From assembly GCA_003554505.1 (NCBI GenBank), contig PWGS01000195.1, positions 1 through 13,928 on the forward strand: DNA of 13,928 nucleotides. Direction: 5' to 3'. The position numbers were made by a program, and so were the translations under genes. Every line of letters begins with the position of its first letter. Position 1 is the stretch's first letter. The notes beneath the pieces are model-generated. The model was not told where the DNA came from, did no database searches, and worked only from the letters and a program-made list of their open reading frames with translations. This DNA comes from Desulfonatronospira sp. GTDB lineage: Bacteria; Desulfobacterota; Desulfovibrionia; Desulfovibrionales; Desulfonatronovibrionaceae. Positions 1 through 7,727 of this stretch are shown piece by piece.

Positions 1-213
1 GGTTGAGGCGGCCCCAGGCTGGCACTTGCTCTGGACGAGCAAAAAGAAAACGACAATGTATATGATTTAAAGGGCTTTCAATTCCTGGTGGACAAAAATC
101 TCATGCAGACTGTAGCTCCAATTCAACTGGATATGACAGAAGGCGGTTTTATAATAAAATCCAGTCTGCAGGCAAGTGCCGGAGGATGTTCATCTTCCTG
201 CTCCTCCTGCTGA
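1..213 (+). CDS. IscA/HesB-like selenoprotein, C-terminal part (5' end outside window)
   Basis: Frame 1 is open from the window edge to TGA at 211-213 except for an in-frame TGA at 4-6. The reading is G-U-G-G-P-R-L-A-L-A-L-D-E, then about 45 residues, ending in a Cys-rich tail GGCSSSCSSC. IscA/HesB proteins are Fe-S cluster assembly or carrier proteins with one Cys early in the domain and a CxC-like pair at the C-terminus. The GGPRLxLALDE stretch and the Cys-rich tail fit that family, and the TGA sits where the first Cys belongs. HesB-like selenoproteins are a known bacterial selenoprotein family. The tail has three Cys (C-x3-C-x2-C) instead of plain CxC. I infer cytosolic Fe-S or metal handling. 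The start codon and N-terminal half are not visible. A strong terminator follows 27 nt after the stop. Confidence 0.8.
4..6 (+). other. In-frame TGA read as selenocysteine
   Basis: TGA at 4-6 interrupts a frame that continues for 68 more sense codons with clear IscA/HesB character. It falls at the conserved first Cys position of that family, just before GGPRL. A normal stop here would leave a conserved coding sequence downstream without any start codon. Decoding would need SelA/SelB/SelC, which are outside the window. Confidence 0.78.
14..34 (+). promoter_or_regulatory. Candidate bacterial SECIS hairpin
   Basis: Directly after the TGA, CCAG (14-17) pairs with CTGG (31-34). Inside that, GC (18-19) pairs with GC (28-29), leaving T30 bulged and an 8-nt apical loop TGGCACTT (20-27). 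The loop holds a GG about 15 nt after the UGA, near the spacing and apical-G character of known bacterial SECIS elements. The stem is short and its fold was judged by eye only. Confidence 0.4.
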
Positions 214-324: not shown

Positions 325-612
325 ATGCAGTGCGATACCATAAAAAAAGGGGGGGAATGCACTTTTATGACAGCCAGGGGTTGTTCTTATAAAGAAGGAC
401 AGTGTTATCCCATAGTGGAAAAATGCAACGGTTGCGACCGCATTCACGAGTTCGGAGGGCAGACTTACTGCAAAAGCTACCCTGAACCGGCTGTGAAGTG
501 GGAGCACAATGCCTGCAATTTCGCTACACACGTGCAGGCCACATTCGACAAAAGCGGCCAGGTCAAGATCAACCCCATCAAGGCTTCCAAGCGCGCCGCC
601 AAAAAGAGATAA
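325..612 (+). CDS. PxxKW family cysteine-rich protein
   Basis: A 95-residue protein with eight Cys (residues 3, 12, 20, 27, 34, 37, 49, 64), including a CNGC pair at 34-37, and the motif PAVKW at 55-59 that gives the PxxKW family its name. The C-terminus is very basic (KASKRAAKKR). The family is small, mainly found in anaerobic delta-type proteobacteria, and has no established function. The Cys pattern suggests metal or Fe-S binding, which is inference. I chose ATG 325 because GGAGG at 311-315 lies 9 nt upstream; a TTG at 301 in the same frame has no comparable site. No signal peptide or membrane segment. It lies between the terminator at 240-273 and the hairpin at 623-661, so it may be a single-gene unit. 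Confidence 0.82.
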   Translation: MQCDTIKKGGECTFMTARGCSYKEGQCYPIVEKCNGCDRIHEFGGQTYCKSYPEPAVKWEHNACNFATHVQATFDKSGQVKINPIKASKRAAKKR

Positions 613-6614: not shown

Positions 6615-6619
6615 AAATC

Positions 6620-7727
6620 ATGATTCAACAATTATCCGACCTAAAAGCCCGTTCCGATCAGGTTCTTCAACGCTTTACATCTTTCTGGGGGCGGCTTTGA
6701 CCTGGAATCCCGGAAACAGAGACTGGAGGAAATAGAGCATGAGCTTTCCAGGCCAGGGGCATGGGACAATCCTGAAAAACTCACCCCCATCCTCAAGGAA
6801 AAAAGCAGTCTGGAAGAAAGCGTCAGCAAATATGAAAACCTTTACAGTTTACAGGAAGAAGTAAGAGAATGGCTGGATTTTGTTGAAAAAGATCAGTCCC
6901 AGGAGGTTATACAGGCGCTGGAGGACAGTCTTGGAGCCCTTGGCAGGCAGCTTGAAAAGCTGGAACTGGAAGCCTTATTAAGCGGCAAAGACGACAATAA
7001 TCCCGCAATTGTTTCCATCCATCCCGGGGCAGGAGGCACTGAAGCCCAGGACTGGGGGGAGATGCTGCTGCGCATGTACACCAGGTGGGCCGAAAACAAC
7101 GGCTTTCGGTTGGATTACCTGGATTATTTACCCGGAGACGAAGCAGGAGTCAAAAGCGTGACCCTGCAGGTTACCGGAGAGTACGCTTATGGGTTGCTTA
7201 AAAGTGAAAGAGGTATACATCGTTTGATCCGCATTTCTCCTTTTGATTCATCAGGGCGCAGGCACACCTCTTTTGCTTCGGTTGATGTTTATCCCCAGGT
7301 TTCCGATGATATAAACATCGAGGTCAAAGAAGATGATATGCGGGTGGATGTTTTCAAATCCAGCGGTCCCGGGGGGCAGCATGTCAACAAGACCAGGTCA
7401 GCTATCCGGATAACCCACCTGCCAACGGGGATCGTTGTCCAGTGCCAGAGCGAAAGATCCCAGAGACGTAACCGGGAAGCCGCTCTCAAGATTTTGAAGG
7501 CCAAGCTTTACGATCAGGAAATGAAAAAGCTTGAGGACGAGAGGCAGGAAAAATATGCGGCCAAGGACAGTATAGCCTGGGGCAGCCAGATCCGTACCTA
7601 CCCCCTTCATTCTTACCGCCTGGTAAAGGATCACAGGAACAACACCGAAATCTCCGATGTAGACAGAGTCCTGGACGGAAACATTGACGAACTGATCCGA
7701 AACTATCTCCTGTACAGACATGGGTAA
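6620..7727 (+). CDS. prfB: Peptide chain release factor 2 (programmed +1 frameshift)
   Basis: It is encoded in two frames: 6620-6697 (26 codons, ending before in-frame TGA 6698-6700) and, after a +1 slip, 6699-7727. The product is 368 residues, normal for RF2. RF2 recognises UGA and UAA and triggers peptide release. The tripeptide anticodon SPF at 206-208 marks it as RF2 rather than RF1 (PxT). The catalytic GGQ is at 251-253 in SSGPGGQHVNKTRSA. The N-terminal part MIQQLSDLKARSDQV is typical. Expression is autoregulated: low RF2 slows termination at TGA 6698 and favours the slip. The gene lies 23 nt after lnt and is the last gene of the corC-lnt-prfB run. It has no obvious ribosome binding site. 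Confidence 0.97.
6687..6701 (+). promoter_or_regulatory. prfB programmed +1 frameshift site
   Basis: The codons read TGG GGG CGG CTT TGA C. GGGGG (6687-6691) acts as an internal Shine-Dalgarno one codon before the slippery CTT (6695-6697), followed by TGA and C. This has the same spacing and slip codon as the E. coli site (AGG GGG TAT CTT TGA C). After the slip, GAC (6699-6701) is the next codon. Confidence 0.95.

Follow-up and report, generated by a model that had tools for sequence, protein, structure and literature searches.

Does the TGA codon at the very start of this Desulfonatronospira contig encode selenocysteine (Sec) in a HesB-like protein and, if so, what might the residue do there? 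The window, i.e. the whole stretch of 13,928 nucleotides that was analyzed, is the entire contig C191 of an assembly of 1.64 Mb in 306 contigs (82.6% complete), and the two share their first base. Positions 1 to 213 of the forward strand belong to a hesB/iscA-like gene whose 5' part is cut off by the contig start, leaving its 3' part. Translation of this segment gives G-UGA-GGPRLALALDEQKENDNVYDLKGFQFLVDKNLMQTVAPIQLDMTEGGFIIKSSLQASAGGCSSSCSSC-stop. The TGA at positions 4 to 6 shares its reading frame with 68 sense codons, which include a C-terminal Cys-rich tail (GGCSSSCSSC) and are ended by a second TGA. An in-frame TGA followed by 68 sense codons up to a Cys-rich tail had been reported from the sequence alone, and our own reading of the window confirmed it. 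The features discussed below are the following.

1..213, + strand: predicted hesB-like selenoprotein gene, 3' part, running from the Gly that precedes Sec through the stop codon (ORF reading, contig edge, family alignment)
4..6, + strand: UGA probably read as Sec, corresponding to residue 32 of the complete congener protein (in 16 of the 18 genomes of the family; aligned with the Cys of a GC-x-G motif)
26..42, + strand: candidate bacterial SECIS hairpin, TTGCTC-TGGAC-GAGCAA (core in 63/64 Sec versus 1/24 Cys genes; minimum-energy fold)
187..210, + strand: Cys tail, C-SSS-C-SS-C, with Cys codons at 187-189, 199-201, and 208-210 (all three Cys unchanged across the 19 aligned rows)
211..213, + strand: terminal stop codon TGA (TGA, TAA, or TAG among relatives)
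325..612, + strand: PxxKW family Cys-rich protein, the next gene (NF038144, 129.8 bits for a cut-off of 40)

Assignment to a known selenoprotein family

The window fragment matched the NCBIfam model NF038090 (IscA_HesB_Se) with an E-value of 2e-21 and a score of 76.2 bits, which is below the cut-off of 85, as expected since the gene is truncated. The full-length protein of a congener (L003) passed the same model with 104.2 bits. At E-values up to 1e-3, all 19 rows of the alignment were matched both by NF038090 and by TIGR01911 (HesB_rel_seleno), and 17 of the 19 by the Pfam model Fe-S_biosyn (PF01521). The member shown scored below the cut-offs of TIGR01911 (41.5 versus 66.35 bits), the IscA model TIGR02011 (24.5 versus 150.6 bits), the ErpA model (28 versus 117 bits), and TIGR00049, and below the gathering score of PF01521 (22.8 versus 26.3 bits). 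The window fragment alone had no match in Pfam. A profile search of solved structures matched four sequences, 1nwb, 2apn, 1s98, and 1r94, and in the three alignments printed (1nwb, 2apn, and 1s98) the Sec column coincided with the GC-x-G Cys. The proposal that UGA replaces the first conserved Cys of IscA/HesB proteins thus agrees with the alignment. An in-frame UGA lying within U-x-G-P at that Cys is what characterizes HesB-like selenoproteins, and this arrangement is present here. We consider it highly probable (about 93%) that the window gene is a member of the IscA_HesB_Se subfamily and codes for a Sec-containing HesB-like protein.

The gene adds a member to a selenoprotein family that is already known, both from the NCBIfam model and from published descriptions. 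In the excerpts considered here, HesB-like selenoproteins are covered by PMC1794560, which gives 11 selenoproteins and 2 Sec-to-Cys events, PMC1088965 also includes such proteins, and PMC1914089 lists DVU_1382 of D. vulgaris among them. Excerpts of PMC9312934 and PMC13188914 name the model TIGR01911, the latter giving UxGP as the HesB-like motif. As excerpted, PMC11097638 cites 75Se labelling in M. maripaludis, mentions a disruption mutant with unimpaired nitrogen fixation (unpublished there), and calls the function of these proteins not clear. Among the papers listed by literature searches, titles and opening abstracts mentioned neither a biochemical function for HesB-like selenoproteins nor tandem Sec/Cys hesB pairs.

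Conservation of the UGA within the family

A search across 18 genomes of the same family returned a hesB-like match in 17, the genome without one being G017. A single in-frame TGA was present at the same place in 16 of the 18, including the genome of the window; in G012 the match begins downstream from that place, at a contig end. Occurrence of the same TGA in 16 of 18 genomes is therefore more than chance. Named matches to the relatives were best for Desulfonatronospira MAGs, in a listing that may omit records of the source genome. The window gene itself is not extendable past the contig start. Lack of an IscA/HesB-like N-terminal half in frame upstream from the TGA would have refuted the sequence-only reading, but all 15 family relatives that could be read there contain it, with a start codon 30 codons upstream of the Gly (14 ATG and 1 TTG). 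The full-length Sec proteins encoded by the 15 family genes other than that of the window comprise 99 to 101 residues. The Sec/Cys column and the three tail Cys are invariant in the 19-row alignment. Besides the Sec gene, three genomes (G007, G008, and G016) harbor a Cys paralogue elsewhere.

The terminal TGA (211-213) was also considered as the site of another Sec, a reading that was rejected. The 16 Sec genes of the family end with TGA (5), TAA (8), or TAG (3), and the terminal TGA of the window gene is therefore a plain stop codon.

Synonymous codons following the UGA

Codons +8, +9, and +11 (GCT CTG ... GAG) were identical in all 27 Sec genes compared, including that of the window, and other conserved residues near them were encoded by two to five codons. 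A wider search retrieved 71 Sec and 24 Cys genes, and removal of seven Sec rows whose 48-nt stretches were duplicates left 64. These sets consist of best-scoring loci and hand-picked regions rather than a random sample, and the search pattern required a motif upstream from Sec, which places the window gene outside the 64 and leaves off-pattern genes uncounted. The core GCUC-UGGAY-GAGC, or variants of it retaining the four pairs, could be formed in 63 of the 64 distinct Sec genes and in 1 of the 24 Cys homologues (Fisher p of 7e-19, a value that treats genes as independent of kinship). When synonymous codons were redrawn in 1000 rounds, the core appeared on average in 4.4, and never in more than 12, of the 64 genes. 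The next pair, +21/+35, covaries (T-A 30, G-C 28, G-T 3, C-G 2, A-A 1). Synonymous codons under the predicted hairpin are thus constrained in Sec genes, and the 64 Sec and 24 Cys genes offer a clean natural comparison in which the recoding signal is visible in synonymous codons.

The gene of the window also has the core, and the minimum-energy fold of its sequence shows the hairpin at 26 to 42. The codon constraint is what marks a SECIS hairpin directly after the UGA; folding energy by itself is not significant, since the 50 nt of the window were no more stable than shuffled sequences (z of -0.6; 53 of 200 shuffles as good). For L057, the minimum-energy fold differs from the common hairpin. 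The only Sec gene of the 64 without the common core is L113 (G551), in which another inverted repeat, TTGGCC/GGCCAA, was seen by eye at the same place. In the Sec gene L106 (G685), ACTC...GAGT replaces GCTC...GAGC, a paired change from G-C to A-U in the core. Among the Cys genes, L059 keeps the core with a different loop, and L136 keeps the 12-nt motif with loss of the fourth pair.

Selenocysteine machinery

The gene for tRNA-Sec (selC) is present in the source genome, as is selD (L024, G000:C148), which scored over the cut-off, has an in-frame UGA of its own in GAGUASK, and probably encodes a selenoprotein too. The search of the 82.6%-complete assembly gave no match to selA. For selB it gave two weak matches that stayed under the cut-off and were of a kind seen in all 14 control genomes as well. 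Both selA and selB were over the curated cut-offs in six of six congeners. Absence of the Sec machinery from the genome would have refuted the sequence-only reading. This condition holds only superficially: selC and selD are present in the source genome, and selA and selB, not found in its incomplete assembly, occur in all six congeners, where the machinery is complete.

A 19-kb congener stretch containing selA and selB was compared with the source genome. With 40 of 153 first-look candidates scored, this gave 53 matches, of which 45 were to two intergenic stretches and only one was gene-sized (C141:114-750, 70% identical). The two stretches, located beside selB in G006 (L148, 5843-6020 and 7116-7437) and matching 45 places in the source genome, look like a dispersed repeat family. 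The 3.8 kb beside the congener selA, in which folC, malic enzyme, hypA, and hypB genes were recognized by eye, gave no match in the source genome, in a search that scored 40 of its 43 candidates and had no positive control. Since neighbors of the congener selA-selB locus were also not found, a missing stretch of the assembly is a likelier explanation, albeit not a proven one, than loss of the two genes. Loss of the Sec trait from the source genome is disfavored on the same ground.

Main and alternative readings of the UGA

Under our main reading, SelB and tRNA-Sec, aided by the hairpin at 26 to 42, would insert Sec at the UGA at 4 to 6, and the product would be an IscA-type protein of about 100 residues with Sec in place of the first conserved Cys and a Cys tail at its C-terminus. 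The UGA might instead be a true stop codon or result from a sequencing error, with the frame representing a decayed hesB gene, a reading with which the failure to find selA and selB in the assembly would be in keeping. Recurrence of this UGA in 16 of the 18 genomes of the family, conservation of both halves of the gene, and the synonymous codon constraint on the hairpin all speak against decay, which we regard as very improbable. Genome-wide reassignment of UGA to a sense codon, in favor of which nothing was found, is scarcely credible and was rejected: of 11 further window genes with ends that were read, six terminate at TGA, so that UGA is a stop codon in general, and in prfB there is a frameshift site, CTTTGAC, at 6695. 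The prfB gene (release factor 2; window 6619-7727) itself apparently requires a shift of +1 at CTTTGAC, which we take to be the usual autoregulatory site.

The claim that the UGA encodes Sec is therefore very probably right in view of the conserved UGA, the hairpin constraint, and the homology. It had also been anticipated that automated gene callers would truncate or miss the gene. Ordinary calling would indeed truncate it, but the subfamily is already modeled by NCBIfam. The locus thus provides a confirmed selenoprotein gene where ordinary gene calling would cut it short.

Sec and Cys forms in the order

A hesB-like match at 1e-8 was found in 319 of 348 genomes of the order, and a match in 187 of 395 genomes drawn from the phylum. 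Sec and Cys forms were tallied over the best 150 matches, which come from 110 genomes of the order and leave lower-scoring copies outside the tally. Among these matches, the Sec form occurred in 101 of the 110 genomes and Cys only in 9. In the same set, a Cys gene was located at most 1.5 kb from the Sec gene in 23 of the 101 Sec-form genomes, and elsewhere in the genome in 17. Side-by-side Sec and Cys genes are seen at L128 (G093), L134 (G018), L144 (G094), L145 (G199), and L146 (G200); L133 (G097) is a further pair, beyond the 23.

In a tree of 88 proteins (64 Sec and 24 Cys) based on few columns and rooted at the midpoint, Cys rows occupied several separate places among Sec rows. The tree needs 11 changes of the Sec/Cys label, at least 10 of which are forced by well-supported branches (mean of 21.3 for shuffled labels). 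Cys copies seem to have emerged several times over next to Sec genes, in many cases as tandem neighbors; because the root is a midpoint, the direction from Sec to Cys is one that we infer. We tentatively suggest, as a scenario less likely than not, that Sec-HesB is ancestral in Desulfovibrionales-type bacteria and was repeatedly duplicated to give a Cys copy without the SECIS hairpin, often adjacent. The pairs might then act as a selenium-dependent isoform switch or form a mixed Sec/Cys dimer, with Sec tuning a metal or Fe-S site. With Sec/Cys pairs recurring in relatives that can be cultured, the function of HesB-like selenoproteins would become open to testing.

Possible function

The A-type proteins IscA, ErpA, and SufA are Fe-S carriers that bind Fe-S clusters or iron via three Cys. 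Alignment of Sec with one of their conserved Cys makes a role as cluster ligand plausible, which would place Sec at a chemically unusual position. The likeliest function, to which we give roughly even odds, is that of a carrier site for metal or Fe-S, where iron, an Fe-S cluster, or some other metal would be bound by the selenolate together with the tail thiolates; the tail spacing, unlike the C-x-C of IscA, speaks against it. A distinctly less probable proposal is that Sec serves thiol/selenol redox chemistry, for example by forming a Se-S bond with a tail Cys, an IscA-like fold having been co-opted for an oxidoreductase or repair role. The tail would lend itself to this, with three Cys against two in IscA, but the Sec column is the conserved Cys column of the Fe-S carriers. 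As excerpted, a review (PMC13188914) considers most uncharacterized prokaryotic selenoproteins to be probably redox proteins; the motif found here is UxGP, which is neither UxxC nor CxxU.

Assistance in selenium or sulfur trafficking, or in the maturation of selenium-dependent enzymes (formate dehydrogenase, NiFeSe hydrogenase), is suggested by two Cys paralogues located near selenoenzyme-type genes. In G008, the paralogue (L062) lies beside a hydrogenase large subunit gene, for which the best model is NiFeSe_hydrog (587.9 for a cut-off of 600), and a maturation protease gene (TIGR00140, 180.4 versus 151.8). In G007, it (L061) lies between YedE/TusA-like genes and an ORF resembling the formate dehydrogenase alpha subunit, with scores below the cut-offs. 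We nevertheless hold this role to be unlikely: the neighbor matches, protease models excepted, are below curated cut-offs, a third Cys paralogue (L063) has no such neighbors by eye, and the Sec gene itself adjoins other genes. Downstream from it in the window are the genes for the PxxKW Cys-rich protein and for an M20 hydrolase, followed by mnmG, all three scoring above their cut-offs, and PxxKW-like and M20-like genes were seen by eye downstream of hesB in all five family regions viewed. Gene context does not fix the function of the HesB-like selenoprotein.

Comparison with known systems

The closest known system is the NF038090 subfamily (IscA_HesB_Se), whose curated cut-off is exceeded by the full-length congener and whose Sec within U-x-G-P is shared; the differences seen are limited to sequence divergence and, for the window copy, to shortening by the contig end. 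TIGR01911 (HesB_rel_seleno) describes proteins homologous to the family studied here, but the member shown remains below its cut-off. IscA, ErpA, and SufA are homologous over most of their length, and Sec aligns with their first conserved Cys. They differ in having Cys rather than Sec at this position, and the member shown scores far below the cut-offs of the IscA and ErpA equivalog models. The tails also differ, being C-x2/3-C-x2-C in the present family and C-x-C, with two Cys, in IscA.
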